Below, one piece after another: positions 5,409 through 25,665 of a stretch of 47,740 nt of DNA. The notes under the pieces were generated by a model that did no database searches, was not told the DNA's origin, and saw only the letters and a program-made list of their open reading frames with translations. Within the stretch, counting starts at the first letter, position 1. Each line of letters starts with the position of its first letter. Made by a program: the position numbers and the translations under genes. Origin of the DNA: Phaeodactylibacter luteus (GTDB lineage: Bacteria > Bacteroidota > Bacteroidia > Chitinophagales > Saprospiraceae); NCBI RefSeq assembly GCF_007993045.1, contig NZ_VOOR01000042.1, forward strand, positions 1-47,740, in the 5' to 3' direction.

Positions 5409-5744
5409 AGAGCGTGTTGGGACTTTAGTAATCGGTATGTCCCGCTAGACAGCGGGACACTTTTTCGCTTATACTTCGCCCCAAAAATCCTTCCCGCTTT
5501 TGTGCATAAAAAGCGGGACTTGGCTAATCAAAAAATTGCTAGTGCCTTAAAAGTCATAAATCTCTGATACTTAAGTTGAAGTTATTTTCCGGCTAATCAA
5601 GGCGAAGGTTCGCGACTTTAGCCCGAGCTAAAGGAGCGGTTCTTTAACGAAGAGTAGGCGGAAAAGAACGAAACTTGGGGTGTCAAGGGTTTATGGCTTG
5701 AGGCACTAGTTTTCGGCTAGAAGACCAAAAGCCCAGAACGCTCT
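5409..5744. repeat. Imperfect inverted-repeat region D, interrupted by a B element
   Basis: The left end agagcgtgttgggac at 5409 is repeated inverted as gcccagaacgctct ending at 5744. Inside, two strong hairpins use the same arms: TGTCCCGCT/AGCGGGACA (5438-5459) and TCCCGCTTTT/AAAAGCGGGA (5492-5518). A family B element (5539-5709) sits within it. It may be a remnant mobile element or a strong transcription barrier. No second copy is seen in the window. Confidence 0.45.
5539..5709 (+). repeat. Family B inverted-repeat element, copy 1 (MITE-like)
   Basis: This 171 bp copy begins CTAGTGCCTTAAAAGTCAT and ends ATGGCTTGAGGCACTAG. The outer about 22 bp are inverted repeats with a few mismatches. 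The core GGCTAATCAAGGCG ... AACGAAGAGTAG and a central TTTAGC/GCTAAA hairpin match copies at 17866 and 43900. It has no coding capacity. CTAG at both ends is either the target duplication or part of the terminal repeat. Confidence 0.85.
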
Positions 5745-5940
5745 TAGTTTTTGTGTACCTGTTTGGGGTTATTGTGGTACAAAGGTAAGGTTACAGCAGA
5801 AGGGCACAAAAGTAAAAAAACCAAATAATTAAAAAATGTGACATTTAAAACATCCATAAACTACCGTATATGCCTTTTAAAATTAGAATTTATTTAAAAA
5901 TATTGTGACGTTGTTTCAGGAAAAATATAGGCTTAAAAAA

Positions 5941-6150
5941 GGGCGTGAGCCAAAATGTCGCAGGCGTTTCCGTTTCTCGAGCGTTAGCCTGGCATTGGCC
6001 TAGCGCTGCGCAGGGGTGGCCGAAGGCCAGACCCGATGCCTGTAGGGCGAGGGGCCGAGCGGATAGCGAGCCCCGTAGCATAGCGGCACCTGCCAGCCTG
6101 CCCACTCACATGGTGCAGGGGCAGGCCCTAAAAAAACGAAGGCCGGAATC
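5941..6150 (+). repeat. Family A GC-rich dispersed repeat, copy 1
   Basis: The copy starts GGGCGTGAGCCAAAATGTCG and contains the family core (ctggcattggcctagcgctg, then gagccccgtagcatagcggc, then gcaggggcaggccc). It belongs to the long subtype, carrying the extra GGCCGAAGGCC and tgtagggcgaggggccgagc segments also present in copy 2. Its right end has diverged and no clear boundary can be set. Open frames through it are artefacts of its GC content. Confidence 0.8.
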
Positions 6151-6458
6151 ACATGGATCCCGACCCTCCAACATTAAACAAATATGCACAATCTTAAGAC
6201 TGTGGCGTACACAGTCCATCTCTTTTAGTGGGGCAGTTGCTTTACTAATTGTCAGTGTAAAGATAACACTTTCCCCTAAAAATCCTAGTGGCTGAACATC
6301 GATCAACCAAGGAGCTGCCCCCTGTTTAACGCAACCAATTGATTAGCAGCAGACTCCGATGCATGGAATGTCTTCCAGACGTCGTTTCAGCGGGAATACG
6401 TACCTTTGGCCTCATTTCAAGCCCTAAGGGGCGCCCACACTTCAAAGCGGCAGCTTTT

Positions 6459-7397
6459 ATGGACCGGCCCTACCCTACCCCACACTGGAAAATCGCCATC
6501 AATGGCTTCAAAGCATACCTGCTGCTCGAACAGAGCCTGTCTGCACATACTGCGGAAGCTTATCTAAGGGACATCGGTAAGCTGACCGACTTCCTTCAAC
6601 TGCTGGGCAAAAAAGCGAGCCCGGAAGAAGTCACTACAGCAGATCTTCAGCACCTCATGCAGTGGCTCAACGAGCTAGGGCTAGGGGAGCGTTCCCAAGC
6701 CAGGCTGATTTCAGCCCTGAAGACCTTTTACCGCTATCTGGTATTAGAAGGGTATACTGAGCAGGACCCGGCAAGCCTCATAGACGCCCCCCGTCTGGGC
6801 AGGAAGCTGCCCACCGTCCTATCTTACGAGGAAGTGCAGCGCCTTTTGCAAGCCGTTGACCTGAGCCACCCGCACGGGCACCGCAACCGGGCTATACTCG
6901 AAACGCTTTACGCCTGTGGGCTGCGGGTAAGCGAGCTGATCGCCCTCCGCCGCTCTCAATTTTTTGCAGAAGCGGGCTTTGTCCGGGTCATAGGAAAGGG
7001 GGACAAGGAGCGGATCGTCCCTATTGGGCAGCAAGCGGTAAAAGCCGTTCAGCTCTACCTTGACGGCGACAGGCGCAAACAGATGAATATTGCCACCGGG
7101 CAGGAAGACTTCCTGTTCCTGAGCCGTAGGGGGAAAACCTTGAGCAGGGTCATGGTATTCCAGATCGTCAAAGCTGCAGCGCGGGATGCCGGTGTAGAGA
7201 AAAACGTCAGCCCACATACCTTCCGCCATGCATTTGCCACTCACCTGATCGAAGGCGGTGCCGACCTCAAAGCAGTTCAGGACATGCTGGGCCACGAATC
7301 AATCATCACCACCGAAATCTATACTCATCTGGACACTGCTTACCTGCGCGAGACCATTTTACAATACCACCCAAGGAGCCGGAACCGGAGGAAATAG
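6459..7397 (+). CDS. xerD: Tyrosine recombinase XerD-type
   Basis: This site-specific recombinase of 312 residues has an N-terminal SAM-like DNA-binding domain (about 10-95) and a C-terminal catalytic domain. The full catalytic set is visible: Arg156 in ACGLRVSEL, Lys180 in IGKGDKER, His253 and Arg256 in PHTFRHAFATH, His279 in LGHES and Tyr288 in TEIYTHLD. Its length matches XerC/XerD, so it most likely resolves chromosome dimers at dif. I chose the ATG at 6459; an in-frame ATG at 6339 would add 40 residues lacking family resemblance. It heads a same-strand run to 10417. XerC and XerD cannot be separated from sequence alone, but single Xer-like genes of Bacteroidota are usually named xerD or xerA. 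Confidence 0.9.
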   Translation: MDRPYPTPHWKIAINGFKAYLLLEQSLSAHTAEAYLRDIGKLTDFLQLLGKKASPEEVTTADLQHLMQWLNELGLGERSQARLISALKTFYRYLVLEGYTEQDPASLIDAPRLGRKLPTVLSYEEVQRLLQAVDLSHPHGHRNRAILETLYACGLRVSELIALRRSQFFAEAGFVRVIGKGDKERIVPIGQQAVKAVQLYLDGDRRKQMNIATGQEDFLFLSRRGKTLSRVMVFQIVKAAARDAGVEKNVSPHTFRHAFATHLIEGGADLKAVQDMLGHESIITTEIYTHLDTAYLRETILQYHPRSRNRRK

Positions 7398-7587
7398 GGC
7401 TGCAGAAACGGATTTGTGCCCTTGTATTTCCCAAACCCCCGCAAGGTGGGTATATTTACGGGCTGCAAAAGGAGCAGGCACAGGGCCTACTGCCACTAAG
7501 CGCATGTTTGGAGCGCTAAAAACCCTACTGCTGGCAGGGCGGTGCAAAAGCCTGCTCTGCTGCAAGCTGCAGTACAACTATAATTCA

Positions 7588-7983
7588 ATGATGAACCATC
7601 CACCTACCGCAATGGAAACCTGGGAGTTTGAGTACGAATGGCTCCGTGTGAGGCACTTGGTCCAAAAAGCCTTTGAAAAAGACAGCTTGCCAGACCTCAA
7701 TGCCATCCTCTTCCTCATCGGCATTCAAGAGCTCGGGCACTGGAAAGGCAGCTTCTCGAAAGAAGAGAAACAAGACCTTATGCATATTGCTGTATGCCGC
7801 CTGCTGAGCTACGGCGGGCATTATGCCTTCTTGGGAAGGGATGCAGACGGCTGGCCTCATTACGAAGCCAAGCGGCCCGTTGAAGCCCAAGGGCTGGAAG
7901 CTCAGGAAGAACTGCTCAAGGCTTATGCCATAACCTATTTCAAAGAGCTGGAACAAGAAAACGGCGGGCTAGAAAAGCTTTGA
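7588..7983 (+). CDS. Conserved-looking small hypothetical protein
   Basis: I do not recognise this family. The product is about 131 residues (start ATG 7588, or the adjacent 7591), soluble, acidic and mostly helical by composition. Aromatic-rich stretches such as WEFEYEWLRVRHLVQKAF at the N-terminus, ILFLIGIQELGHW in the middle and YAITYFKELEQE near the end suggest a compact helical domain. There is no signal peptide or cysteine pair. It lies between xerD and the cyclophilin lipoproteins on the same strand. The open frame extends upstream into xerD, but that extension is unlikely to be translated because it overlaps a solid gene in another frame. Confidence 0.65.
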   Translation: MMNHPPTAMETWEFEYEWLRVRHLVQKAFEKDSLPDLNAILFLIGIQELGHWKGSFSKEEKQDLMHIAVCRLLSYGGHYAFLGRDADGWPHYEAKRPVEAQGLEAQEELLKAYAITYFKELEQENGGLEKL

Positions 7984-8045
7984 GCTCACAGTGCCCTGCC
8001 CCAACAGCAACTGCTAACCATTCAACCACACGCATAAAAATCACG

Positions 8046-8699
8046 ATGAAGTATTTTTTCCAGCCTATTATCGTGGCCAGCCTATTGCTCTTGACCAGCT
8101 GCGAACAGGGAGACGGCTTCACTTACGCCATGATCGGCACGCCTTACGGCGAAATGAAAGTAAAGCTCTACAACACCACCCCGAAGCACCGGGACAACTT
8201 TATCAAGCTATCTGCCCAGCAATTCTATGATGGCCTGTTGTTCCATCGGGTTATCCCCAACTATATGATACAGGGCGGCGACCCTGAATCTAAAGAGGCA
8301 GCTGCCGGGCAAATGCTAGGGCAGGGAGGCCCCGGTTACACCTTAGCGGCAGAATTTGGCGAGCTCCACTTCAGAGGGGCCTTGGCTGCTGCAAGGCTAG
8401 GCGACCGGCACAACCCTGACAAACGCTCTTCCGGCTCCCAATTTTATATTGTGCAAGGGCAGCCCGTCACCACTGAAGTGTTGGAGCGTATGGAAAAACA
8501 GTTTGGGAAATCCTACACGCCAGAGCAGAAACAGAAGTACCTCGAGCGCGGCGGAGCCCCCGTACTAGATGGCGACTATACCGTTTTTGGCGAGGTAGTA
8601 GAAGGGCTCGATGTGATCGACAAAATCGCGGCAGCACCTACCGGAGCCTTTGACCGCCCCGACCAAGATATTCCCATGACCATAAAAATCCTAGATTGA
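8046..8699 (+). CDS. Cyclophilin-type peptidyl-prolyl isomerase lipoprotein
   Basis: This 217-residue lipoprotein has a lipobox LTSC with Cys19, so it is expected to be anchored in the outer or inner membrane facing the periplasm. The cyclophilin domain covers nearly all the rest. FHRVIPNYMIQGGD carries the catalytic Arg and the Phe/Gln pair, and GSQFYIV is the second active-site strand. Between that strand and the final GDYTVFGEVVEGLDVID segment lies an insertion of about 40 residues (TTEVLERMEKQFGK...), which the next gene shares. The start at ATG 8046 is set by the signal peptide. Its stop overlaps the next ATG by one base, so the two are translationally coupled. Confidence 0.88.
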   Translation: MKYFFQPIIVASLLLLTSCEQGDGFTYAMIGTPYGEMKVKLYNTTPKHRDNFIKLSAQQFYDGLLFHRVIPNYMIQGGDPESKEAAAGQMLGQGGPGYTLAAEFGELHFRGALAAARLGDRHNPDKRSSGSQFYIVQGQPVTTEVLERMEKQFGKSYTPEQKQKYLERGGAPVLDGDYTVFGEVVEGLDVIDKIAAAPTGAFDRPDQDIPMTIKILD

Positions 8700-9592
8700 T
8701 GAAACTTCTAACTTGGCAGGGGGGCATCCTCCTGGCTTTGCTCATCAGCAGCTGTGGCCGCCCTGTTGCCCGTTTCAGCCTGGAAAGCACTCAGCAACGT
8801 GTTCTTCAGCCTATCCCTTTTGACAACAAGAGCGAAAAAGCAGTACGCTATGAGTGGGACTTCGGCGATGGCAAGACCGCTGAAGCGGAATCCCCTGAGC
8901 ACCGTTACAAAGCCTCTGGCGCATACACGGTGACCCTCACCGCTTACAACGAAAAAGGCAAGGCCAGAAAGGCCAGCCAAACCATTGAAGTAGCGCCTCC
9001 AAAGGCTTGCCTCGTAGAAATCGAGACCGAGCTGGGCAGCATGATTGTAGAATTGTATGACGCCACCCCTCAACATCAAGACAACTTCACAAAGCTGGCC
9101 GAAGAGCATTATTTTGACAGCCTGCTGTTCCACCGCGTCATCAACAACTTTATGATCCAAGGCGGCGACCCCCAGTCAAAAGGGGCCCCTGGCGGGCAAG
9201 CTCTCGGATCAGGTGGGCCCGGCTATACCCTACCTGCAGAGTTTGTAGACTCTCTGGTACATGTCAAAGGGGCTTTGGCTGCTGCCCGGACAGGGGATGC
9301 GGTCAACCCGGCGAAACGGTCCTCCGGCTCACAGTTCTATATCGTCCACGGGCAGCAGCTCACTGAAGATATGCTGAACCGGATAGAAGCGCAAAAAGGT
9401 ATCCGTTATACTACCGATCAGCGGGAAATGTACCTAGAGCTGGGGGGCACCCCTTTCCTAGACCGGGAGTATACCGTCTTTGGCCGAGTCATCGAGGGGC
9501 TTGATGTCATTGACCGGCTGGCCAGTGTGCCTACAGACCGGCGTGACCGCCCACAGAATGACCTCCGCATGAAAATCAGGCTGATCCGCTAA
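8699..9592 (+). CDS. PKD-cyclophilin fusion lipoprotein (peptidyl-prolyl isomerase)
   Basis: This 297-residue paralogue of the preceding gene has lipobox ISSC (Cys19). A PKD domain at about 26-100 contains YEWDFGDGKTAE and GAYTVTLTAYNEKG. A cyclophilin domain runs from about 105 to the end, with FHRVINNFMIQGGD and GSQFYIVHG. The same long insertion precedes EYTVFGRVIEGLDVID. The PKD domain may act as a spacer or protein-binding module that holds the isomerase away from the membrane, an inference from PKD use in other surface proteins. The close similarity and one-base overlap with the upstream gene point to a tandem duplication in which one copy has gained or lost the PKD domain. Confidence 0.88.
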   Translation: MKLLTWQGGILLALLISSCGRPVARFSLESTQQRVLQPIPFDNKSEKAVRYEWDFGDGKTAEAESPEHRYKASGAYTVTLTAYNEKGKARKASQTIEVAPPKACLVEIETELGSMIVELYDATPQHQDNFTKLAEEHYFDSLLFHRVINNFMIQGGDPQSKGAPGGQALGSGGPGYTLPAEFVDSLVHVKGALAAARTGDAVNPAKRSSGSQFYIVHGQQLTEDMLNRIEAQKGIRYTTDQREMYLELGGTPFLDREYTVFGRVIEGLDVIDRLASVPTDRRDRPQNDLRMKIRLIR

Positions 9593-9670
9593 TTCCCAAC
9601 TTATTTCAAGGAGGCTAGAGGCCGAAACAGCAACAGGGCTATTGGGCCAGCTGCCAAGTAAACTGAGCAT

Positions 9671-10417
9671 ATGCAAAATTTGATTTTAGGTGTAGATGTA
9701 GGCGGCTCCGGCATAAAAGGGGCTATTGTAGACATCAATACCGGCGAACTCCAGAACGAACGCATCAGGATTGCCACGCCCAAACCGGCAACCCCGGAGG
9801 CAATGGCTGAAATCTTTAAGGAGCTGGTCGAAGCTCATCAGTACGAAGGCCCGATAGGCTGCGGTTTCCCAGCCATCATCAAAGGCGGCAAAGCCCTTTC
9901 TGCCGCCAACATCAGCGATCAATGGATTGGACGAAGCGTGGCAGACATCTTCGGTGAAGCAGCAGGCGGCCCGGTCTGTGTCCTAAATGATGCCGACGCT
10001 GCAGGTGTAGCAGAAATGGAATTTGGGCTGGGCAAAGGGGAGCCTGGCCTGGTCCTTCTCATCACCATTGGCTCGGGCTTGGGCTCCGCCTTGTTCTTAG
10101 ACGGCAAGCTGGTGCCCAATACCGAGTTTGGGCATATGCGCTTCCAGGGCATGGTGGCAGAGCACTACGCTTCCAACAACGCCAGGAAAAAGCATGATTT
10201 GAGCTGGGAGGAATGGGGGCACCGATTCAATGAGTACCTCCATTATGTCAGCCGGATTGTCAACCCTGACTTGATACTTCTAGGCGGTGGGGTGAGCAAA
10301 AAATTCCAGAAATACGAGGCTTTTATTGACGCCCCTACCCGAGTAAAGCCAGCGGCTCTGCTCAATGCGGCAGGCACAATAGGTGCTGCTATTTATGCGC
10401 ATCAGCGCCAGCTTTGA
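9671..10417 (+). CDS. ppgK: Polyphosphate glucokinase (ROK family)
   Basis: At 248 residues it has the ROK/ASKHA phosphate-1 motif [12 protein letters not shown] (8-18) and the catalytic LNDADAAG (Asp107). [20 protein letters not shown] followed by TEFGH is the signature distinguishing polyphosphate-dependent glucokinases from ATP-only ROK kinases. The predicted reaction is glucose plus polyphosphate to glucose 6-phosphate. The cyclophilin pair lies 78 bp upstream, and a strong terminator follows the gene. The length equals that of known PpgK proteins. Use of ATP as an alternative donor cannot be excluded. Confidence 0.85.
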
Positions 10418-10446
10418 ATGGGCTTTGGCGGCAGCCTCGTAACCCA

Positions 10447-10488
10447 CGAAGGGGCCCCGGCAAAATACCGTGGCCCCTTCGCCTTTTT
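10447..10488. terminator. Intrinsic terminator between convergent genes
   Basis: CGAAGGGGCC and CCGG pair with CCG and GGCCCCTTCG around a CAAAATA loop, followed by CCTTTTT on the plus strand. It ends the ppgK transcript and lies in the convergent gap with the TPR gene. Confidence 0.85.
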
Positions 10489-10535
10489 CAAGCCCTGCTT
10501 TTAACAACAGCAGCGCTACAGTTACACGGCTAAGG

Positions 10536-11969
10536 TCAGTAATTAGGAGACTGCCAGGTGTGATCGGCAATCAGGTTTATCACAGAGGCATCAGTTTCCA
10601 ACTCAGGCATGAGCTCGAACAAGGAACGGTGCATTTCGAAGTCTTCAGTCAGTGCTTCTCCCAGCCAGTACATGGCAGCGTTCCGCTTGCCGGTAGCAAA
10701 CAAGCAAGCGACACGGCAGTAGAGCACCTCTGCGCCAGGGGCTGTATCCATAGCCTCTTCCAGGACATCAAGTGCTTCCTCGGCCTGCCCGGCGTCGATG
10801 AGGAAAGTAGCATACAAAATCCAATAGCGCGCTTCGATATCGTTCAGGGCGATAGCTTCACGGATATACTCTACCGCCATATCTGTATTGCCAAGGTTGT
10901 AATAAGCTTCCGCCAAAGCCCCCAGGTACTCTTCGCGGGTATCGTCTATGCCCAAGGTTTTCTCAAAATACTGAACGGCATTCATCCACTGCCCCTGAGC
11001 GGCGTAGCACTCCCCTATAGCGAAATAGATCTCATCGTTGAGGGGGTCCATTTGAGCAGAACGGATATAGAAAGTGATGGCAGCACTTGGCCGGTCCAAC
11101 TGAAGGTAGCACTGCCCGATCTGGACGTACAATTCGGCTTCCGCTTCGCTGCCCTGTGCTTCCAAGAGCTGCAGATAGTACTTGAGCGCTTTCTGAAAAT
11201 GCTGCAGCTCCATGCACAAATCTGCACAATCCCTACAGGCTTGCCAATACTGATCATCTACTGCGATGGCATATTCGTAGGCCTCCACGGCTTCCTCGTA
11301 CTCTGCCATATACACTTTGGCTTGCGCCAAATTGTACCAAGCAACAGGCAGGTAGGCATTTTGCTCCAGCAGCTGCTCGTAAAATGCAATGCCCTCAGTA
11401 TACTTACGGCACTGAAGGGTACAGCTCCCAAAGCGCTCCAATGCCTCCTGGTTTTCGGGGTCGGCAACAACAGACTGCTGCAAAGTGTAGAACATCGCTT
11501 CGTATGCATCGTTGCGCTCATGGGCCAGCGCCTCGATAAACAGGATATCGGAAAGGCTGCTGCTGCCTGCCCCATCCTTGAGGAAGTCTAGCAGTACCAT
11601 AGCCTCACTAACATCGCCCGCCGCGATCAGTGCTTCTGCATAAAGCAGCTCGACCTCTATATCGCCAGGGGCCAGCCCACGGGCTTTGGCCAGCGTATCA
11701 AAGGCTTTATCAAAAAAATGGTTGTCCAAGTAAAGCTGGGCCAGTTTCAAGTGCAAATCTATAGCAAACGGGTGCTGGGCTACGCCTTGGGCAGTGGCCT
11801 CGATCCCTTTTTTGGGCATGCCCTCCTCCTCATAGCTTGCGGCAAGCTGAAGGAACTCCGCTACCGTAAAATATACCCTGGTACCGGCAGCAAACTGATT
11901 TTCGTACCGCTGCTGCAGCCGCCTCAGCAGCCGCTCCTCATTGTGGTTTTGTCCCGGGTATATCATCAT
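10536..11969 (-). CDS. Tetratricopeptide repeat protein
   Basis: This 477-residue protein is built from about twelve TPR units along its whole length. Recognisable repeats include PEVAWYNLAQAK-like YNLAQAKVYMAEYEEAVEAY, YVQIGQCYLQLDRPSAAITF, FAIGECYAAQGQWMNAVQYF and YNLGNTDMAVEYIREAIAL. There is no signal peptide or membrane segment, so it is predicted to be a cytoplasmic scaffold. I chose ATG 11969 (or 11966), which starts MMIYPGQNHNEERLL. The longer frame to 12086 adds a basic leader with no TPR character. The next gene lies about 250 bp away. No partner is evident, so the function beyond protein binding is unknown. Confidence 0.85.
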   Translation of the reverse strand: MMIYPGQNHNEERLLRRLQQRYENQFAAGTRVYFTVAEFLQLAASYEEEGMPKKGIEATAQGVAQHPFAIDLHLKLAQLYLDNHFFDKAFDTLAKARGLAPGDIEVELLYAEALIAAGDVSEAMVLLDFLKDGAGSSSLSDILFIEALAHERNDAYEAMFYTLQQSVVADPENQEALERFGSCTLQCRKYTEGIAFYEQLLEQNAYLPVAWYNLAQAKVYMAEYEEAVEAYEYAIAVDDQYWQACRDCADLCMELQHFQKALKYYLQLLEAQGSEAEAELYVQIGQCYLQLDRPSAAITFYIRSAQMDPLNDEIYFAIGECYAAQGQWMNAVQYFEKTLGIDDTREEYLGALAEAYYNLGNTDMAVEYIREAIALNDIEARYWILYATFLIDAGQAEEALDVLEEAMDTAPGAEVLYCRVACLFATGKRNAAMYWLGEALTEDFEMHRSLFELMPELETDASVINLIADHTWQSPNY

Positions 11970-12215
11970 GTATCGTCGTCGTTCTAAAATTTTCGGTAAC
12001 CTACCTAAAATCAGCTCTTTGAGCCGTCCAAAGATAGCCAAAAGTCCTCCGGAATTGCCAGCTTTTGCCCTCCAACCCGCATTCAATTAATGGAACGGTA
12101 GGGAAAAGCAAGGGAATGGTCGTTTCTAGCAGCAGTGCAGTTGGATTTACCGGCAAGCCTCCTTATTCTATTATTTTTTTCTCTATATGGCTTTTTTGTC
12201 ATATTGTTTTTTTAC

Positions 12216-13154: not shown

Positions 13155-13278
13155 AAATACACCCTTTTGGAGATTTCTGCCCCAGAGGCCCGCTCAAATC
13201 TATACTCCTCCCGGTCACGAGAGGTGAAGCTTTGACGCCTTTGTTTTTGTGCCCAGGGGAGTACATATAGGTCAAACG

Positions 13279-13484
13279 GGGCGTGAACTAAAATGTCGCT
13301 TGCGTTCATATCCTTCGGGCTTTTGGCTGGCATTGGCCTAGCGCTGCGAAGGGGTGGCCGAAGGCCAGACCCGACGCCTGTAGGGCGAGGGGCCGAGCGG
13401 ACAGCGAGCCCCGGAGCATAGCGGCACCTGCCATCGGGCAGGGGCAGGCCCCACCAAAAAAAACGACAATCTGGCTCGCGCCCG
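13279..13484 (+). repeat. Family A GC-rich dispersed repeat, copy 2
   Basis: This copy has both ends. It starts GGGCGTGAACTAAAATGTCG and ends ACAATCTGGCTCGCGCCC, an imperfect terminal inverted repeat. It is flanked by GTCAAACG on the left and GTCAAAAG on the right, which may be a decayed target duplication. It belongs to the long subtype, like copy 1. Its right end abuts the stop codon of the Spy-like gene at 13485. Confidence 0.85.
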
Positions 13485-13949: not shown

Positions 13950-13996
13950 TATCCTTGTATTTGTGTAGTTAGGGAATGCGCAGACAGTGGCCCGGA

Positions 13997-14431: not shown

Positions 14432-14447
14432 GTCTCAGTTCCTGGTT

Positions 14448-15002: not shown

Positions 15003-15086
15003 GATGATGCTGCCTTTTTGAATCAGACTCGCCAGCCGTGGGCAGGTTTAACCGAGCCTCAAAAAAATACAGGATAAGCTTATGGA

Positions 15087-16715: not shown

Positions 16716-16733
16716 ATCCCTTTTAACAAAACC

Positions 16734-17690: not shown

Positions 17691-17729
17691 AACAAAGCAG
17701 CTTTTACAAGTTGTTAGCTAGATTGACCA

Positions 17730-18078
17730 GGCGCAAACCAGATGGCCATTTTCCTTTGGGGGCCTGCCCCTGCCAGCGGGCAGGTGCCGCTATGCTCCGG
17801 GGCTCGCTGTCCGCTCGGCCCTATCGGGCTTGAAAACCCCTGCGCAGCGCTAGGCCAATGCCAGGCTAGTGCCTTAAGCCATAAATCTCTGATACTTAAG
17901 TTGAAGTTATTTTCCGGCTAATCAAGGCGAAGGTTCGCGACTTTAGCCCGAGCTAAAGGAGCGGTTCTTTAACGAAGAGTAGGCGGAAAAGAACGAAACT
18001 TGGGGTGGCAAGGATTTATGGCTTGAGGCACTAGAGCCCGAAAAGCGCAGACGCCTGAGGCTTTTTTGGCCTTCGCCC
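17730..18078 (-). repeat. Family A dispersed repeat, copy 3, interrupted by a B element
   Basis: The left end GGCGCAAACCAGATGGCCA and right end ggccttcgccc are the family termini, and the core appears on the minus strand (short subtype). The sequence is split after ccaggc by a complete B element (17866-18034). Without it, copy 3 is about 180 bp. ATTGACC on the left and ATTTACC on the right may be remnants of a target duplication. Confidence 0.8.
17866..18034 (+). repeat. Family B inverted-repeat element, copy 2
   Basis: This 169 bp copy has ends CTAGTGCCTTAAGCCATAAA and TTTATGGCTTGAGGCACTAG, which pair at 19 of 20 positions. It is nearly identical to copy 3 (43900), suggesting recent movement or gene conversion. 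It lies within family A copy 3. Confidence 0.9.
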
Positions 18079-18220
18079 AATTTACCGCATAAGTTAATAC
18101 TATCCTGCCACAACCTTCCCTATCGGGAAAGCCTGGAAAATCAGCGGCAGCAGCCGTACAACACAAGGCAAGCCCTACCTGTTGTAAAACAGCGGGCCGC
18201 CGGCCCGGTTAGCCTCAGCC

Positions 18221-18254
18221 TTTGCCCCTATGGTTTCAAATTATTGTAAATTTG
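18221..18254 (+). promoter_or_regulatory. Predicted Bacteroidota promoter of the T9SS cargo gene
   Basis: A perfect TAAATTTG -7 box (18247-18254) has an upstream TTTG (18221-18224) with a 22 bp spacer. The start of transcription would fall near 18261, leaving a leader of about 90 nt. Confidence 0.55.
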
Positions 18255-18349
18255 CACCGCACGGGTGTCAGGCAGGCCGTTGAGCGATGTGGCCTTAGCC
18301 GCTCTAAGCCGTCAGCCCACCCTGCCAAACCCTGAAAATCACGACCGCC

Positions 18350-19489: not shown

Positions 19490-19551
19490 AGCGCACCCAT
19501 CGCTCTTTGATACGGAAAAGCAAAACATTATGAACCCCGTTTTCTCACTAA

Positions 19552-19636
19552 ACTTTCATTTAGCCCGCTGAACTCAAATTTAGCGGCTATGCCAAAACCC
19601 TGCTGCCCAGCAAATGGGCATAAACCCTTGGTTTTC
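19552..19636 (-). repeat. Dispersed repeat family E, copy 1
   Basis: Read on the minus strand, this matches 44132-44215: TTTATGCCC, then TGCTG.GCAG, GGGTT.TGGCA, CTAAATTTGAG and AGCGGGCTAAATGAAAG, in the same order and nearly the same spacing. It lies between the T9SS cargo and lipoprotein genes. It contains local inverted repeats (TGCCCA/TGGGCA). Confidence 0.7.
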
Positions 19637-19681
19637 CCTATAAAACTACTCCAAACAAGCCCTTAAAACGACCGATCAAAA

Positions 19682-20173
19682 ATGATGAACATGCGCCTGA
19701 ATCTACTCCTTGCCCTAGCCCTTGGGCTTTGCTTAATCTCCTGTGCTCAAGGCGGCGACAGCCCAGAAGACGTACCCTCCGCTGCCACAGGCCCGGCCAA
19801 GGCTGCACCAGCCGCTGCCTATAACAGTGTGCCTGCGGATACCATTCAAATGCTGTTCCAGGAATGTGACTACATCGATTACGTTTTCTATTATACCAAT
19901 TTCAGCGTAAGCCAAAATACGCCTACAGATATACAGACGGCACTTTCCTACATCTCTGCCGATGTACCGGAAGTGCTGCCGCAGTGCAAGCCTGTAGGGC
20001 ACATCTTCTATCAGGTCCGGGGGGAGAACAGGGCTGAAGCCGACCTCTACTTTGACAATACCTGCATTTACATGATGTTTTATGAAGATGGCAAGCCGGC
20101 CTATGCCAATAAGCTGATGCCTGCAGGCATCGCCTTCTTCAATCAGCTCTTTCAAAACACCCAAGCCCGTTAG
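19682..20173 (+). CDS. Small lipoprotein of unknown function
   Basis: The 163-residue product has a signal peptide with lipobox LISC (Cys21), then a low-complexity Ala/Pro linker (PSAATGPAKAAPAAAYNSVP). The globular domain of about 110 residues is rich in Tyr and Phe (ECDYIDYVFYYTNFSVS, CIYMMFYEDGKPAYANKL) and has three cysteines (ECDY, QCKP, NTCI). I do not recognise the domain; similar small Bacteroidota lipoproteins are annotated as hypothetical. Three closely spaced ATGs (19682, 19685, 19691) make the exact start uncertain. Its stop lies 5 bp before the Ppx gene, so the two are probably co-transcribed. Confidence 0.78.
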   Translation: MMNMRLNLLLALALGLCLISCAQGGDSPEDVPSAATGPAKAAPAAAYNSVPADTIQMLFQECDYIDYVFYYTNFSVSQNTPTDIQTALSYISADVPEVLPQCKPVGHIFYQVRGENRAEADLYFDNTCIYMMFYEDGKPAYANKLMPAGIAFFNQLFQNTQAR

Positions 20174-20178
20174 GAAAT

Positions 20179-21126
20179 ATGGATATAGCCCCCAATTTTG
20201 CAGTGCTCGACTTGGGCACCAATACTTTCCACCTGCTCATTGCGCGGCCACAGGCAGGCACCCCTTTTGAAACGGTACTGGAAGAGAAGCGTTACGTTTT
20301 TCTGGCGGAAGAAGGCATAGCACGTATTGGCGAAGGCGCACGCAACAGGGCACGGAAAGCACTGCACGAGTACGCAGCCCTGCTCGATGAACATAAGGTA
20401 GACCGGGGCCGGGTGCGGATATCCGGCACAGCGGCTTTGCGTACTGCCAGCAACGGGCCTCAACTGCAAGCGGAAGCCAAGGGTATTATCGGTGCTGCCG
20501 TTCAAATCATCAGCGGAAAAGAGGAAGCCCGTTTGATCCACCTTGGCGTTTCTGCAGCCCTGTACCCCATGCAAGAGCGGGCTTTGATCATGGACATTGG
20601 CGGTGGGAGCACAGAATTCATCTTGTCGGATGGGCGGTCGGGCGCATTGTGGGCAGAAAGCTTCCCAATAGGCGCGGCTGTCCTGTTCCGGGAGTTCCAC
20701 CATACTGAGCCCATCGAACCTGCACAAACGGCAGCGCTGCGCGCCCACCTGCAGGCCACCCTGCAACCGTTAAAGCGCGCGCTGAAAGCCCACCCCTGTA
20801 CCGTTTTGGTAGGGGCGTCCGGTGCCTTTGAGGTGGTCGGTTCTGTTTTAGGGAGCGAAGCAGCTGCTTACCGCGCAGCCCGGCTGCCTATCGCACAGTT
20901 CCCTGAATTTGCCCGTAAGATAGCTGGGATGACCGCGGAGGAGCGGCAACAGCAGATGCCCGATATCCCTGCACAGCGCGCTCAGCTTATGACAGTAGCC
21001 TTTTTACTGATCGGAATGGTAATGGAAATGGCTGGCACGAACGCGCTTTTCGTAGCAGCATACGGGCTCAAGGAAGGGATGATGCAAGAGCTCATTTCCG
21101 AGGGGCGCCAAGCATCCTCAATGTAA
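20179..21126 (+). CDS. Exopolyphosphatase/guanosine pentaphosphatase (Ppx/GppA family)
   Basis: The 315-residue product contains both ASKHA phosphate-binding motifs: VLDLGTNTFHLLIA at the N-terminus and MDIGGGSTEFILS near 140. The protein ends after the two-domain phosphatase core and lacks the C-terminal HD-type extension of long E. coli Ppx, which is usual for the short form. The expected activity is release of phosphate from polyphosphate or conversion of pppGpp to ppGpp; sequence does not decide. It follows the lipoprotein gene by 5 bp and is closed by a strong bidirectional terminator. The polyphosphate glucokinase gene about 10 kb upstream fits shared polyphosphate metabolism. Confidence 0.87.
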   Translation: MDIAPNFAVLDLGTNTFHLLIARPQAGTPFETVLEEKRYVFLAEEGIARIGEGARNRARKALHEYAALLDEHKVDRGRVRISGTAALRTASNGPQLQAEAKGIIGAAVQIISGKEEARLIHLGVSAALYPMQERALIMDIGGGSTEFILSDGRSGALWAESFPIGAAVLFREFHHTEPIEPAQTAALRAHLQATLQPLKRALKAHPCTVLVGASGAFEVVGSVLGSEAAAYRAARLPIAQFPEFARKIAGMTAEERQQQMPDIPAQRAQLMTVAFLLIGMVMEMAGTNALFVAAYGLKEGMMQELISEGRQASSM

Positions 21127-21156
21127 AAAAGGGGCTTGTGGCAAGCCCCTTTTTTA
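21125..21156. terminator. Bidirectional intrinsic terminator
   Basis: AAAAAGGGGCTTG and CAAGCCCCTTTTT pair perfectly around a TGG loop, with A and T runs on both sides. It separates the convergent Ppx and serA genes and can serve both. Confidence 0.93.
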
Positions 21157-21186
21157 AAACGGTGTCCTTTTGTTCAAGCCCTGCGG

Positions 21187-22152
21187 CTATTTATCGTCTC
21201 CGAAAAAAGCCAGGATTTTATCCGCCAGCTCAAGCCCGATGTTTGCGCGCGCTTCCAGCGTGGACGCCCCAATATGCGGGGAGCAGGAAACATTGGGGTG
21301 CTCGAGCAGTTCCTGCATCGGCGTAGGCTCATTCTCATAAACATCAAGGGCAGCACCGCGCAGCTTGCCACTGTTGAGCCCTTTCAGCAGCGCCTTTTCG
21401 TCAATAGCACCGCCACGGGCAGTATTGATGAGCACGGCCCCGTCTTTCATTTGAGCGATATGTTCTTCGCCGATAATAGGAGCGCCGCCATGAAAAGGTA
21501 CATGTATAGTGAGGAAGTCGGCGCTGCTCAGCACCTCTTCCCACTCGTAGGTCTCCAACTGAACGGAGAGGCGAACATTTCCAGAGTTATATACATTTAT
21601 GCCGATATCCGCCTGATTGACGACCAGGTCAACCGGCATGACTTTCATCCCCAAGCCTACCCCAATCCGGGCAACTTCCTGGCCGATGCGGCCAAACCCG
21701 ACGATGCCCAAGGTACGGCCAAACACTTGAGTGCCGTTGGAGCACTGCTTCTTGAGCTCCTTAAAATTGGAGTGCCCGCTTGTGGGCATTTCCCGGTGGG
21801 CCCGGTGCAGGTTTCGGCTAAGAGAAAAGATGTGGCCAAAAACAAGCTCTGCCACCGACCTAGAAGAGGCAGCAGGGGTATTCATGACGGTAATCCCCTT
21901 GCTGCGTGCGTACTCCGCATCGATATTGTCAAGGCCTACGCCAGCACGGGCAATAATTTTCAGGTTGGGGCAAAGGTCTATGAGTTCTTGGCGGATTTTT
22001 GTGGCACTGCGCACGATGACCACGTCATACCCGGGCAAGACGGCGGGGAGTGCATCCGCGTCCACTTTTTCAATATCCACCTGATAGCCAGCTTCTTCCA
22101 ACAAGGTAATGCCATCTTGGTGCAGACCGTCAGTTGCTAATATTTTGACCAT
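21187..22152 (-). CDS. serA: D-3-phosphoglycerate dehydrogenase-type 2-hydroxyacid dehydrogenase
   Basis: The 321-residue protein carries the NAD-binding motif GIVGFGRIGQEVA, the catalytic Arg in INTARGGAIDEKAL, Glu in VYENEPTP and His in SPHIGAST. It also has the N-terminal VRSATKI and RAGVGLDNID motifs of the family. It lacks the C-terminal ACT domain, so serine feedback through ACT is not expected. The likely reaction is 3-phosphoglycerate to 3-phosphohydroxypyruvate, the first step of serine synthesis. ATG 22152 gives MVKILATDGL, the family's normal N-terminus; a longer frame adds 41 unlikely residues. No serC or serB lies next to it. A related hydroxyacid substrate remains possible. Confidence 0.85.
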   Translation of the reverse strand: MVKILATDGLHQDGITLLEEAGYQVDIEKVDADALPAVLPGYDVVIVRSATKIRQELIDLCPNLKIIARAGVGLDNIDAEYARSKGITVMNTPAASSRSVAELVFGHIFSLSRNLHRAHREMPTSGHSNFKELKKQCSNGTQVFGRTLGIVGFGRIGQEVARIGVGLGMKVMPVDLVVNQADIGINVYNSGNVRLSVQLETYEWEEVLSSADFLTIHVPFHGGAPIIGEEHIAQMKDGAVLINTARGGAIDEKALLKGLNSGKLRGAALDVYENEPTPMQELLEHPNVSCSPHIGASTLEARANIGLELADKILAFFGDDK

Positions 22153-22257
22153 GAATGCCGATTTTTTAGTGAGTGAATTGGGCGTCAATTTCCGCTGTCC
22201 ATAATAGGGCTTTTTCTGGAAAAAAGGCGTTTGGGGTTCTACTTTTTCGCTAGGCAC

Positions 22258-22293
22258 AAAAGCCCTGACTGCCAAGATCGGCGGCCAGGGCTT
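22258..22293 (-). terminator. Intrinsic terminator of the secreted-protein gene
   Basis: On the minus strand AAGCCCTG pairs with CAGGGCTT, extended by GCC/GGC, and is followed by TTTG. It lies just downstream of the gene ending at 22320 and upstream of serA. Confidence 0.7.
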
Positions 22294-22319
22294 CAGCGCT
22301 CTTTGCAGACAAGGGCTGC

Positions 22320-22796
22320 TTAGTTCTCTACGCGCTGGCTAAATACCGGGAAGTTGGCGCCGGTATAGTGGCTAAATGGGCGCGAGCTGGTAGCAGGGAA
22401 AGTATATTTATTCATGAAAGACTTCAGGAAAGCAGCCAGCTCTACTTCCTCAACATTGCGAGAGTCTGGCCGGAGCAGGTAGCCCATATGCGCTATCTGC
22501 CCGTTGGCGCCCCAAAAAACATGGAGCCAAAGCTTCACACCGTTGATATCGTATTTAACTTTCTGCGCATAATTATCCATGGCTTTCATCATCTCCATCC
22601 AATTGCTGAATGCAGCTTTGGTATCATAGCCAGAAACCTCAAGAAGCGTTTGGCTGTACTTTTGCTTGGCCCCTTCGAAAGCGGCTTCATGATCCCCTAG
22701 TTTGAATACCGGGGGGAGCGCTTCCGAAGAAGACTGTGCACAGAGCGGGCTGACCGCAAAAAGAAGAGCCAGCATACTGGAAAACAGAAACTTCAT
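22320..22796 (-). CDS. Small secreted protein of unknown function
   Basis: The 158-residue product has a signal peptide (MKFLFSSMLALLFAVSPLCA). The mature domain of about 138 residues contains YSQTLLEVSGYDTKAAFSNW, a VKLWLHVFWGANGQIAHMGY stretch, and a C-terminal ELAAFLKSFMNKYTFPATSS. The pattern (helix, then strand pair, then helix) resembles small periplasmic proteins. The line LWLHVFWGANGQIAHMGYLL followed by RPDSRN is a distinctive feature for a family search. No lipobox is present. It is transcribed alone and ends at its own terminator. I cannot assign a function. Confidence 0.75.
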   Translation of the reverse strand: MKFLFSSMLALLFAVSPLCAQSSSEALPPVFKLGDHEAAFEGAKQKYSQTLLEVSGYDTKAAFSNWMEMMKAMDNYAQKVKYDINGVKLWLHVFWGANGQIAHMGYLLRPDSRNVEEVELAAFLKSFMNKYTFPATSSRPFSHYTGANFPVFSQRVEN

Positions 22797-22973
22797 GTCA
22801 TTGTGTTTTTGGGGCCGGGCAAAAGCCGATAAAAGCTGGCCCCGGCTGATTAATTTAGCTGTGCTAAGGTATAATAATTGGAGGGATTTACCCCACCCTT
22901 ACCTTAAGATATAATCAATATTAAAAAAAGCTTAATGAATAGTACAGATTGGCCCGTTCGCCCTGCTGTGCTG

Positions 22974-23002
22974 TTGGAGCCGGCCGGAAGTTTGTATCTT
23001 TG
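22974..23002 (+). promoter_or_regulatory. Predicted Bacteroidota promoter of the PAP2-like gene
   Basis: TATCTTTG (22995-23002) fits TAnnTTTG, with TTG at 22974-22976 and an 18 bp spacer. Transcription would start near 23009, only about 14 nt before ATG 23023. Confidence 0.55.
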
Positions 23003-23022
23003 CCGAAAGAAAAACCGGAGTA

Positions 23023-23691
23023 ATGCTCAAATCGCTGGCACAAGTCATCTCGTTCATCTTCCACCCGCTGTTGATAGTGACTTACATGTTGGTGCTCATC
23101 CTGATGGTCAACCCTTATTTGTTTGGCGTCAATAGCGTTGGAGACCAAAGCAGCAAGCTGCTCATCTTAAGGGTTTTCCTTTCGACTTTTTTCATCCCGG
23201 GCTTTGCCGTAGCCATGCTGCGGTTTACCGGGCTGGTCAAATCATTGGAACTGAGGACCCGGCAGGAAAGGATTGGCCCGTATATTATCACGGGCATGTT
23301 CTACATCTGGATGTTCCGCAACTTTATGGGCAGCAGTGCAGTCCCTACTGCTTTCAATGGGTTCTTGCTTGGGGCGACGATAGGGCTGTTCTTGGCCTTT
23401 TTTATCAATATTTTTTCCAAAATCAGCGCCCACGCCGTCGGGATGGGCGGCTTTGTGGGCATGGTCGTCATTACGATGCTGTTGTACAGTTATGACACTT
23501 TCGTCATCCACTCCACCCTGGTTGGGGTTGTAGAAATCAGCATGACCACGGTACTCTTTGCAGTGATCATTTTGGCAGGCCTGGTAGGGACCGCCCGCCT
23601 AATACTGAACGCCCATGAACCGACCGACCTTTATGGCGGTTACCTCGTGGGGTTTGCTGCACAATTTCTTGCACTCCGTTTTCTATTCTGA
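23023..23691 (+). CDS. Six-helix membrane protein, PAP2-like
   Basis: The 222-residue inner-membrane protein has about six helices. An N-terminal SFIFHPLLIVTYMLVLILM is followed by RTRQERIGPYIITGMFYIWM, then SAHAVGMGGFVGMVVITM, which resembles the SxHxxxxxG motif of PAP2 phosphatases, and finally ARLILNAHEPTDLYGGYLVG, where H-x5-D-x4-G matches the last PAP2 motif. The first KxxxxxxRP motif is degenerate (RTRQERIGPY). It could be a lipid phosphatase acting on undecaprenyl or phosphatidyl substrates, or an inactive relative. Kynurenine monooxygenase follows 43 bp downstream. Confidence 0.75.
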   Translation: MLKSLAQVISFIFHPLLIVTYMLVLILMVNPYLFGVNSVGDQSSKLLILRVFLSTFFIPGFAVAMLRFTGLVKSLELRTRQERIGPYIITGMFYIWMFRNFMGSSAVPTAFNGFLLGATIGLFLAFFINIFSKISAHAVGMGGFVGMVVITMLLYSYDTFVIHSTLVGVVEISMTTVLFAVIILAGLVGTARLILNAHEPTDLYGGYLVGFAAQFLALRFLF

Positions 23692-23734
23692 GCAAAGCCC
23701 TCTATTACCACACCAAACCAAATTATCGCTTCCT

Positions 23735-25105
23735 ATGAAAGCCCCCATTCTCATTATCGGCGCTGGCCTGGTCGGCTCACTCTGGGCCGTACTCTTGGCC
23801 AAACGTGGTTATCAGGTTCAGGTTTTTGAGCTGCGGGACGACCCCAGAAAGGCAGGGTTTGCCTGTGGCCGCTCCATCAACCTGGCCATGAGCCACCGCG
23901 GGTGGAAAGCAGTGGCCAAAGCCGGCATTGAACAGCAGATTCAGGAGCAGGCCATCCCTATGTATGGGCGGTTGATGCACGATACCAAAGGTGGGCTCAC
24001 GCATCAGCCTTACGGAAAGGAAGGCCAGGCCATCTACTCTGTTTCCAGGGGCGGGCTGAATATCGAGCTGATCAACATCGCTGATCAACACCCCAATGTC
24101 TCTTTCCACTTTGGGCAGAAATGCCTCAATGTAGACCTGGACAGCACCACTGCCTTGTTCGAGAGCCGGCACAATGGGCAGCAGCGACAGGTCAAGGCGG
24201 AGCGCATCTTTGGTACGGATGGCGCTTTCTCCTCCGTACGGCGCAGCCTCATGAAGACCCCCCGTTTCAATTATAGCCAATCTTTCTTGAGCTATGGCTA
24301 TAAGGAGCTCCACATCCCGCCCAAGTCAGACGGCAGCCATGCCCTAGACAAAAACGCGCTCCACATTTGGCCGAGGGGGCAGTTCATGATGATCGCACTG
24401 CCCAACCCTGACGGCAGCTTTACCGGCACCCTATTCCTGCCCTATGAGGGGGGCAGCTCTGCTTTTGAGCAGCTCAACAGCGATGAGGCTATCCTGCGTT
24501 TCTTCCAGGATCAGTTCCCAGATAGCCTGCAGGTTATCCCCAACATCCTCGAAGAGTTCCACGAAAACCCAACCTCCTCTCTTGTCACTATACGCTGCAG
24601 CCCTTGGCGCTATCAGGACAAAGCGCTGATCATCGGAGACGCTTCCCACGCTATTGTGCCGTTTTACGGGCAAGGTATGAACGCAGGTTTCGAAGACTGC
24701 ACCATCCTTGATGAAATGATTGACACCTTCGAGGGCGACTGGGGCAAAATTTTTGAAGCCTTCAACAGTAGCCGCATCAAAGACGCTAATGCAATTGCCG
24801 ACTTGGCGCTCCGGAATTTCATTGAAATGAGGGATAAGGTAGCAGATCCAGACTTTTTGCTCCGCAAGGCAATCGCGGCAGACCTGCACGAACGCCACCC
24901 ACAATTCCTGCCCCTCTATAGCCAAGTGACCTTCAGCCATATCCCTTACAGTGAAGCGCTGCAACAGGGCTTGGCCCAGGATCAGCTATTTGAGGACATC
25001 CTCCGGCTGCCGGGCATACACGAAAACTGGAAAAGCAATCCGGAAGTAGACCAGCTGTTTAAAGCTTGGCTCAGCAAACAGCCTTCTTCTACCGCTATGG
25101 CTTGA
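23735..25105 (+). CDS. kmo: Kynurenine 3-monooxygenase (FAD-dependent)
   Basis: The 456-residue protein starts with the FAD Rossmann motif IIGAGLVGSLWAVLLAKRGY. The second FAD motif is LIIGDASHAIVPFYGQGMNA followed by GFEDC, the version found in kynurenine 3-monooxygenases. GFACGRSINLAMSHRGWKAV matches the family's substrate-side segment. The predicted reaction is L-kynurenine plus NADPH and oxygen to 3-hydroxykynurenine, a step in tryptophan breakdown or NAD synthesis. I chose ATG 23735 because it directly precedes the Rossmann fold; the upstream extension overlaps the PAP2-like gene. No kynureninase or dioxygenase gene is adjacent. Confidence 0.92.
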   Translation: MKAPILIIGAGLVGSLWAVLLAKRGYQVQVFELRDDPRKAGFACGRSINLAMSHRGWKAVAKAGIEQQIQEQAIPMYGRLMHDTKGGLTHQPYGKEGQAIYSVSRGGLNIELINIADQHPNVSFHFGQKCLNVDLDSTTALFESRHNGQQRQVKAERIFGTDGAFSSVRRSLMKTPRFNYSQSFLSYGYKELHIPPKSDGSHALDKNALHIWPRGQFMMIALPNPDGSFTGTLFLPYEGGSSAFEQLNSDEAILRFFQDQFPDSLQVIPNILEEFHENPTSSLVTIRCSPWRYQDKALIIGDASHAIVPFYGQGMNAGFEDCTILDEMIDTFEGDWGKIFEAFNSSRIKDANAIADLALRNFIEMRDKVADPDFLLRKAIAADLHERHPQFLPLYSQVTFSHIPYSEALQQGLAQDQLFEDILRLPGIHENWKSNPEVDQLFKAWLSKQPSSTAMA

Positions 25106-25125
25106 AACGGTCTCCGTAAAGTGGC

Positions 25126-25294
25126 CTAGTGGTCTGTCAAGGCTAAAACTAGGGGTTGCCTGCGGCGACTTTTGAGGCTACTCTTCGTTGGACAACTCCT
25201 TACGTAGCGCTGCTATGCGCGGGAACATCCGCCTTGATTAGCCTCAAAATTCGCTCCCACTCAACCCATAAATTAACACTTGACAGACCACTAG
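25126..25294 (-). repeat. Variant C inverted-repeat element (relative of family B)
   Basis: This 169 bp element has termini CTAGTGGTCTGTCAAG and CTTGACAGACCACTAG, perfect 16 bp inverted repeats that differ from those of family B. On the minus strand it contains GGCTAATCAAGGCG and AACGAAGAGTAG at the same positions as in B. The stem next to them reads TTTTGAG/CTCAAAA instead of TTTTCCG/CGGAAAA, changed on both sides. It follows the kmo stop codon by 20 bp and has no coding capacity. Confidence 0.88.
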
Positions 25295-25345: not shown

Positions 25346-25504
25346 GATGAAACCTGCAAACCTCGCCGACTTCACCGTGGGGCCCTTTCCCCCACGCTTC
25401 GTGTAGGCTAAGGCTGCGTTTTTTGTCTCGACAGCCGAAAAAATAGCGGCGTCATATTTTCACACCATGCAGTAGACGCGGAGCGAAACCCTAAGTGGTC
25501 AGAC

Positions 25505-25665
25505 TATAGCCTGGCATTGGCCTAGCGCTGCGAAGGGGTGGCAAGCCCGACAGGGCCGAGCGGACAGCGAGCCCCGCAGCATAGCGGCACCTGCCATCGG
25601 GCAGGGGCAGGCCCCATCCTCACGGCAGGGGAAAGCAAAAAAAAACGGCTTTCTGTTTTGTGCCC
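25505..25665 (+). repeat. Family A dispersed repeat, copy 4
   Basis: It contains the core ctggcattggcctagcgctg, ggggtggcaagcccg, gagccccgcagcatagcggc and ggcaggggcaggcccc (short subtype), then a run of A and CGGCTTTCTGTTTTGTGCCC, a diverged right terminus. It lies between the convergent kmo and secreted-protein genes. Confidence 0.8.

Follow-up and report, generated by a model that had tools for sequence, protein, structure and literature searches.

What kind of element is a repeat of about 170 nt that folds end to end, and whose stem keeps its pairing while its sequence changes? This question is raised by a 47,740-nt stretch of DNA from Phaeodactylibacter luteus (the window, contig NZ_VOOR01000042.1), in which an earlier note, made from the sequence alone, had described three copies of a variant B and one copy of a variant C. 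All four are real and run from CTAG to CTAG. The elements and their structured cores are as follows.

5539..5709, + strand: B element copy 1, 171 nt, CTAG at both ends
5585..5665, + strand: structured core of B copy 1, a covariance model match
17866..18034, + strand: B element copy 2, 169 nt, placed at the CTAG of another repeat
17910..17990, + strand: structured core of B copy 2, a covariance model match
25126..25294, - strand: C element, 169 nt, whose terminus CTAGTGGTCTGTCAA is that of an IS630 on contig C279 of the same genome
25170..25249, - strand: structured core of C, assigned by sequence and by the fold and pair counts of the C core type
43900..44068, + strand: B element copy 3, 169 nt, placed at the CTAG of another repeat
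43944..44024, + strand: structured core of B copy 3, a covariance model match

B and C share one layout, in which an 81-nt core is flanked by two arms of about 44 nt, giving 169-171 nt in total; the equal length claimed earlier holds for three of the elements, but not for B copy 1. The blocks GGCTAATCAAGGCG and AACGAAGAGTAG are exact in all four, as had been noted (on the minus strand in C), while their start-to-start distance is near-equal rather than equal, being 55 nt in B versus 54 nt in C. Allowing three mismatches, GGCTAATCAAGGCG has 6 matches in the window versus 6.0 expected, which is not above chance, and AACGAAGAGTAG, allowing two, has 7 versus 2.0 expected, which is. We suggest that B and C are probably two families of a superfamily of non-autonomous transposable elements (MITEs) that is widespread in Bacteroidota, is mobilised by IS630 and carries a conserved folded core. 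The observation in the earlier note is confirmed, and its interpretation is partly supported.

Copies and spread of the core

The block search proposed in the earlier note was run on the genome, where the exact pair occurs 112 times and a shorter pattern of the pair 131 times, with no occurrence of the reversed control in either case. The elements are shorter than about 300 bp, carry no transposase gene and are dispersed here in 112-131 copies by pattern, which is the form of a MITE. One of them is a chimera with a B left and a C right end; the opposite chimera (C left, B right) was looked for in this genome and none was found. In the diverse set, the element length is 162-171 nt in 15 of 34 and 162-180 nt in 20 of 34, and totals above 180 nt probably reflect, for the most part, drift of the alignment into the flanks.

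The covariance model, which had also been proposed, covers the 81-nt core and, at E values of 0.1 or below, has matches in 59 of 149 genomes of the family, a lower bound like the counts of the phylum scan, since at most 31 and 11 candidates per genome, respectively, were scored. As to single genomes, G063 contains 135 element copies, and in G369 there are short palindromes that carry the same terminus but no core. The G354 matches fall within two tandem copies next to each other, and the copy in G115 (L148) has no pairing arms; these two genomes are of doubtful membership, yet they are inside the scan tallies.

A search of Rfam gave no match in the window at the gathering score, none for the C element at E up to 10 and, with a limit of E 1 in 12 further loci, a single weak miRNA match outside the element. 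No account of the family was found in Rfam or in the literature, preprints and most subscription journals being outside the search. The earlier statement that no described family matches stands for Rfam at the thresholds used, but not for the mobile side, which is that of the known IS630-mobilised MITEs. Spread by viruses was considered and rejected, for the 29 pattern stretches in viral contigs include no match to the core model and are probably due to chance. A plasmid search with B and a phage search with C gave no match.

Outer arms, IS630 partners and target sites

Judged by their sequence, the outer arms are terminal repeats of IS630-family transposons. A longer element that encodes a transposase and shares the termini, which the earlier note had expected elsewhere, was found as an IS630 of this genome (1266 bp, ORFs of 147 and 247 aa) that ends in CTAGTGGTCTGTCAA as C does. 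In the distant genome G350, six 1219-bp IS copies with HTH_32 and DDE_3 domains end in CTAGTGCTGCGTCAAG or CTAGTGCCGTGTCAAG, like the local core elements, and in G176 (L243) the element and the abutting IS630 both begin with CTAGTGCTCTGTCAAG. Between genomes, B agrees at 18/20 with the IS630 of G001 and at 17/20 with that of G155. When 47 IS loci were compared with 121 arm pairs, at least three of which are one copy fetched twice, 48 pairs (14 IS loci) matched at 15/20 or better at both ends, versus 1-6 pairs in five shuffles; at a looser threshold, 21 of the 47 IS loci matched versus 9 in the shuffle, a modest excess.

In the comparison within genomes, most IS loci were without a match to the local arms, which speaks against the IS630 reading; the scores of L229, L232, L243 and L248 were raised there by unmasked element copies, which were masked in the comparison between genomes. 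L243, when re-inspected, is a genuine pair of element and IS630 with a common terminus; at L232, L248 and L249 the element adjoins an IS630, but the ends differ or are only partly alike. The core abuts an IS630 in 4 of 40 further loci. At L243 it sits between two copies of the terminus, and therefore a unit carrying both is possible. A DDE_3 match is present in 28 of the 59 element-bearing family genomes versus 19 of the 90 others (Fisher p 0.001, with genomes treated as unrelated and size ignored); its absence from the remaining 31 also counts against that reading. In a scan of ten genomes, four carry elements without a DDE_3 match (G063, G114, G154 and the single-contig G369). An origin by internal deletion, the usual one for MITEs, would make the middle a piece of the partner IS, and this was not borne out: a search for the core inside nine IS630 loci gave nothing significant (best 17.4 bits, E 0.16), a chimera beside one of them aside.

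The motif YTAR lies near both ends of 59 of the 121 elements, versus a mean of 7.9 and a maximum of 14 after shuffling, and one empty site could be set against 12 B-filled and 5 C-filled sites, the counts being taken from partly overlapping loci. IS630 duplicates TA at CTAG. The filled and empty sites and the YTAR excess agree with insertion of the elements at CTAG/TA with target duplication, where duplication of TA and of CTAG look the same at CTAG sites. An IS630 (Tc1/mariner-like) transposase acting in trans would recognise the arms and insert the element at CTAG, or more generally at YTAR, probably with duplication of TA; the shared termini, the target and the empty site all point to such transposition.

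The outer termini of B and C do change together, as had been noted, but this is not separate evidence of structure, for it mainly reflects descent from different IS630 repeats. The earlier note had itself set descent from a known MITE or IS family against its reading; such descent explains the termini but not the core, which keeps its structure in different genera and with different types of terminus. The arms of 76 elements fall into 54 clusters, and the IS630 transposases with B-type ends are only about 22-26% identical to those with C-type ends. One core is thus combined with many different terminal repeats, the pattern of a constant module with exchanged ends. The exchange is not frequent, since in 178 of 201 pairs of similar cores the arms are similar too; it may proceed by recombination between copies or by insertion of an IS630 at the edge of an element.

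Fold and strand of the core

The predicted RNA fold is common to the B and C cores. Of the 25 core pairs in a structure from which the G-G mismatch of B was excluded, 7 are changed at both bases, 1 is changed at a single base and 15 are invariant; 1 is broken in C and 1 in one B copy. The change from TTTTCCG/CGGAAAA in B to TTTTGAG/CTCAAAA in C had been read correctly and the inner stems covary too, which bears out a structured element with conserved blocks and true compensatory change. Across 35 diverse cores, whose alignment was found by and fitted to a structure-bearing model and is biased toward structure accordingly, two-sided changes occur in 27 of 29 pairs and 95.8% of the pair cells are paired, versus 70.1% in shuffles; 4 of these pairs were added after the alignment had been viewed, and the first structure gave 23 of 25 pairs and 96.2%. 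The 35 cores were drawn from 44 matches, leaving out L013, L036, L066 and the matches above E 1e-7, namely antisense hits, the second L089 hit and the L102 variant. In addition, all 35 cores have A in the unpaired columns 17, 68 and 69 of the alignment, one core mismatch is A·G in 25 and G·A in 6 of the 35, and a highly conserved internal loop lies between two covarying stems. A candidate IHF site in block 1, judged by the IHF consensus, was rejected, for part of the site changes together with its pairing partner.

The pairing is also asymmetric between the strands. G·T exceeds A·C by 117 to 16 in the 35 cores and by 202 to 56 in 80 cores, where the same model bias favours G·T. The arms lie outside the model, and with one element per arm cluster (drawn from 76 of the 80 elements) they give 173 G·T versus 75 A·C, 43 elements being for G·T and 5 against with 6 ties (p 1.4e-8), compared with 242 versus 244 outside the elements. 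Such an excess implies that a single strand does the folding, RNA being the simplest case. Because of the covariation, the strand-specific G·T pairing and the conserved unpaired bases, we consider that the core is maintained as a folded single strand, most likely RNA, and that the same applies less strictly to the end-to-end hairpin as a whole.

Could the stem have been kept without selection? Quasipalindrome correction, in which one arm is copied from the other in a hairpin intermediate, is known to produce changes on both sides, and the IS630 nature of the arms suits ordinary IS630 MITEs with a functionless core. However, such elements are not expected to have the three invariant A columns, the A·G to G·A exchange, the excess of G·T relative to A·C, seen in the core as well as in the arms, or one core common to elements with different termini. 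This explanation is weakened, and we regard it as very improbable. The fold could also matter as single-stranded or cruciform DNA while the element transposes or is taken up as DNA; its shape might, for instance, be recognised by the transposase or by a host DNA-binding protein. The elements are mobile DNA, the fold spans them end to end, and the B core is better than shuffles with DNA parameters as well (-18.3 kcal/mol, z -3.4). Its RNA fold is stronger, however (-34.7 kcal/mol, z -4.4; complement z -1.9), no preference for G·T on one strand is expected of a cruciform, in which both strands are exposed, and single-stranded DNA is not known to take part in IS630 transposition. Therefore, a role as DNA seems unlikely.

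No dedicated partner gene emerged from 882 open frames at 84 loci, where clusters reached at most three loci from different genomes. The clusters found among the flanking frames are common gene types, such as sigma factors, and the frames that recur at four loci of G350 come from reading through the element itself. The orientation relative to neighbouring genes is without bias (26 versus 27 tandem), as scored by a crude gene caller on loci near 3080 bases only, some of them overlapping, with 6 edge loci unscored. This lack of bias speaks against the reading preferred here and would fit a trans or self-contained role, and the conserved internal loop would suit an independent RNA, either a ribozyme or a protein-binding trans-acting regulator, that rides on IS630 ends; with no similarity in Rfam, we find this reading doubtful. 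For the IS630-mobilised MITE with a folded core, the RNA would most likely be made by read-through from neighbours, and the hairpin in the transcript may bind a host factor or be processed, so that intergenic insertions become tolerable and the element persists.

Comparison with known systems

Several known repeats resemble B and C in part. RUP of Streptococcus pneumoniae (107 bp, 108 copies), proposed to be mobilised by IS630-Spn1, is likewise a short intergenic repeat with IS630-matching terminal repeats and TA-containing targets; as far as that source describes it, RUP belongs to one species, has one IS partner and has no core common to families with different termini (PMC2229807). Correia/NEMIS and ERIC are also short and mobile, with TA at the termini and long stem-loop transcripts, and are proposed to act via RNase III (NEMIS) and mRNA stability (ERIC); in the same account each is one family with its own terminal repeat, whereas in the superfamily of B and C the termini vary and the middle is conserved (PMC2229807). 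The 100-nt MITEPsy1 of Pseudomonas syringae is found at CTAG or YTAA, and in the passage that treats it the ends are related to ISPsy2, possibly of the IS5 family, in contrast to the IS630 ends here (PMC3189936). Consequently, the target alone cannot identify IS630. REPIN/RAYT systems consist of paired REP hairpins with a Y1 (TnpA_REP) transposase, whereas IS630 termini can account for mobility here without one. Autonomous IS630 insertion sequences share their termini and their CTAG target with the elements, but encode the transposase that the elements lack.

In the usual view of bacterial MITEs the ends are conserved and the middle is disposable; here this is reversed, for it is the middle that is conserved, and it is folded and strand-specific. 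The elements thus offer a strongly covarying candidate for a new RNA family, a model of partner switching in non-autonomous elements that depend on another transposon for mobility, and a direct test case for selection on RNA structure in bacterial mobile repeats. The CORE-SINEs of animals share a central domain. Their tails match various partner LINEs (L2, L3, RTE and others), and, as the relevant part of that source presents them, they are like the B and C superfamily in being non-autonomous and in combining one CORE name with different partners (PMC3747384). CORE-SINEs are eukaryotic retroposons copied through RNA, whereas B and C are bacterial and have IS630 ends. We see an even chance that the superfamily is their bacterial counterpart, a functional, structured RNA domain spread through Bacteroidota by acquiring, again and again, the ends of very different IS630 transposons; the RNA module would then be the conserved unit, and a new RNA family with its own binding partner or activity.

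Elements of the window and the fold of their core

The elements run from CTAG to CTAG over about 170 nt, and their conserved core is flanked by arms carrying terminal inverted repeats. Two families, B and C, are present in the window.

Elements read from the sequence of the window
5539-5709, strand opposite to C, B element
17866-18034, strand opposite to C, B element
43900-44068, strand opposite to C, B element
25126-25294, strand opposite to B, C element

In the window's genome (6.01 Mb in 301 contigs), the exact pair of conserved blocks occurs 112 times, versus 0 for the reversed control, and a shortened block-pair pattern occurs 131 times. Same-strand pairs of elements with starts 165 nt apart are found on its contigs C90, C234, C252, C258 and C280, and CTAG is common to both elements of one same-strand pair that was read end to end. 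Such pairs are consistent with the insertion of an element into the CTAG at the edge of an earlier one.

The cores of B (81 nt) and C (80 nt) are predicted to form an identical RNA structure, with z-scores of -4.4 and -5.9, respectively. Across 25 pairs, B and C differ by seven two-sided changes and a one-sided one, while one pair is broken in C and another in a single B copy. Among 35 diverse cores, two-sided changes were found at 27 of 29 pairs, and 95.8% of cells pair versus 70.1% after shuffling and 41.7-52.9% with the partner slid; note that the alignment was fitted to the covariance model, so these pairing figures lean towards structure. The internal loop, AAGGC opposite AACGAA, is almost invariant in its bases, and the adjoining mismatch is A·G in 25 of the 35 cores and swapped to G·A in 6.

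Mutation of double-stranded DNA should yield G·T and A·C equally. In the cores, G·T pairs outnumber A·C mismatches by 117 to 16 (35 cores) and by 202 to 56 in a larger set of 80, and in the arms, which lie outside the covariance model and are thus unseen by it, by 173 to 75 (one element per arm cluster); counted by element, the arms of 43 are richer in G·T and those of 5 in A·C, with 6 ties. Sequence outside the elements gives 242 G·T and 244 A·C. Therefore, one strand is selected as the fold, and the simplest reading of these sequence counts is that the folding strand is RNA. The complement of the B core folds less well (z = -1.9). The fold could possibly act as DNA, since the B core still beats shuffles under DNA parameters (z = -3.4).

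IS630 termini and the insertion target

In the single-contig genome G350, which belongs to a different class, the element terminus is CTAGTGCTGCGTCAAG or a close variant, and six 1219-bp IS copies are bounded by this terminus, either identical or with two mismatches. The two open frames of this IS carry HTH_32 and DDE_3 domains, the make-up of IS630. The sole DDE_3 match in the window's genome lies in a 1266-bp IS whose ends, CTAGTGGTCTGTCAA/TTGACAGACCACTAG, are the terminus of C. In G176 (locus L243), an element and an IS630 are in contact, each starting with CTAGTGCTCTGTCAAG. The ends of B match IS630s of other genomes, at 18/20 in G001 and 17/20 in G155. When 47 IS loci were compared with 121 arm pairs, at least 15/20 at both ends was reached by 48 pairs in 14 IS loci, versus 1-6 pairs in five shuffles; at a looser threshold, 21 of the 47 IS loci match versus 9 in a shuffle. 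Within the same genome, most comparisons of arms with IS ends gave no match.

YTAR is found near both ends of 59 of the 121 elements, versus 7.9 expected. As read from the sequence, the insertion target is CTAG or YTAR, and the CTAG of a second, GC-rich repeat family with the GCAGCGCTAGGCCAATGCCAG motif is a frequent landing site of B and C.

GC-rich repeats with the GCAGCGCTAGGCCAATGCCAG motif in the window
5936-6095, GC-rich repeat
13274-13453, GC-rich repeat
17730-17839, GC-rich repeat
25499-25616, GC-rich repeat
33472-33608, GC-rich repeat
43765-43874, GC-rich repeat

In the window's genome, 12 CTAG sites of the repeat are filled by B, 5 by C and 1 is empty (the loci partly overlap). A CTAG/YTAA target has also been reported for a MITE with IS5-like ends (PMC3189936); consequently, it is the termini, together with the transposase domain, that support the assignment to IS630.

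Like the mostly negative same-genome comparisons, the following results count against an IS630 partner. A DDE_3 match was found in 28 of the 59 element-bearing genomes of the host family versus 19 of the 90 others. Four genomes (G063, G114, G154 and G369) have elements and no DDE_3 match. Partners that were lost, unassembled or unrecognised would explain these negative results.

Distribution and the probable exchange of ends

The C core is present in P. xiamenensis KD52 contigs, Phaeodactylibacter MAGs and same-genus genomes. The core covariance model matches 59 of 149 family genomes and 51 of 112 genera (E ≤ 0.1), and a second model, built from 35 diverse cores, confirmed all 22 low-copy genomes tried (E ≤ 0.001), with 1 to 135 copies. 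A sparse scan of the phylum matched 8 of 395 genomes: the window's own and two others from its family, three from a different family in the same class, and two from other classes, one of which (G354) is doubtful. On a Chlamydiia-labelled contig (L066, JAUILX010000132.1, 3420 bases), which is probably mis-binned, one B core is perfect and a second core is cut at the contig end. In G369, the right arms of the elements at L119 and L123 have an insert of about 50 nt in common, and contig C1 has 122 matches (≤3 mismatches; control 0) to a terminus of the core elements; two extra terminus sites read (L119, L131) lack a core and form palindromes of about 45 bp.

The arms of 76 elements fall into 54 clusters. 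Core identity reaches 80% or more in 201 pairs of elements; in 178 of these the arms are similar too, and in the remaining 23 (e.g., L257 versus L259) the outer arms are below 60%, several of the 23 being repeats of the same two lineages. The IS630 transposases paired with B-type and C-type ends are about 22-26% identical. We infer that the core stays constant while terminal ends are exchanged, and two possible routes are visible. The only natural chimera of the window's genome (L189:2757-2924, contig C279) has the left arm of B, whereas its core and right arm are those of C; the IS630 having C's ends is 155 bp away. In addition, an IS630 adjoins an element at a common TA-containing end in 4 of 40 IS loci (L232, L243, L248, L249), a count that contigs breaking at repeats may inflate; such abutting may be a step in the exchange. 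The core was not found within nine IS630 loci scanned without filters. At L243, however, the core has a copy of the terminus on either side, which makes one unit carrying both core and IS630 conceivable.

Putative role and known systems

The IS630 ends, the CTAG/YTAR target and the conserved strand-specific fold can be regarded as demonstrated or strongly supported. An IS630 transposase would move the element in trans, its ends would be exchanged and its fold would act as RNA. According to a crude gene caller, the element lies inside an open frame in 1 of 104 loci, and neighbouring genes are convergent in 29 cases versus divergent in 15, with no tandem orientation bias (26 versus 27). These counts fit an element that would be tolerated at gene ends, where read-through transcripts would yield a protected or processed hairpin. 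The core may alternatively be a trans-acting RNA.

No Rfam RNA corresponds to the core, and no published description of the family was found within the literature searched. RUP, NEMIS and ERIC, short IS-like palindromes of bacteria with proposed RNA-level effects, are precedents, but a constant core under varying ends appears in none of them in the available part of the source (PMC2229807). Therefore, the elements are best placed among IS630-mobilised MITEs, as a variant with a structured domain that appears not to have been described before. A constant core with varying ends is likewise seen in the CORE-SINEs of animals (PMC3747384).
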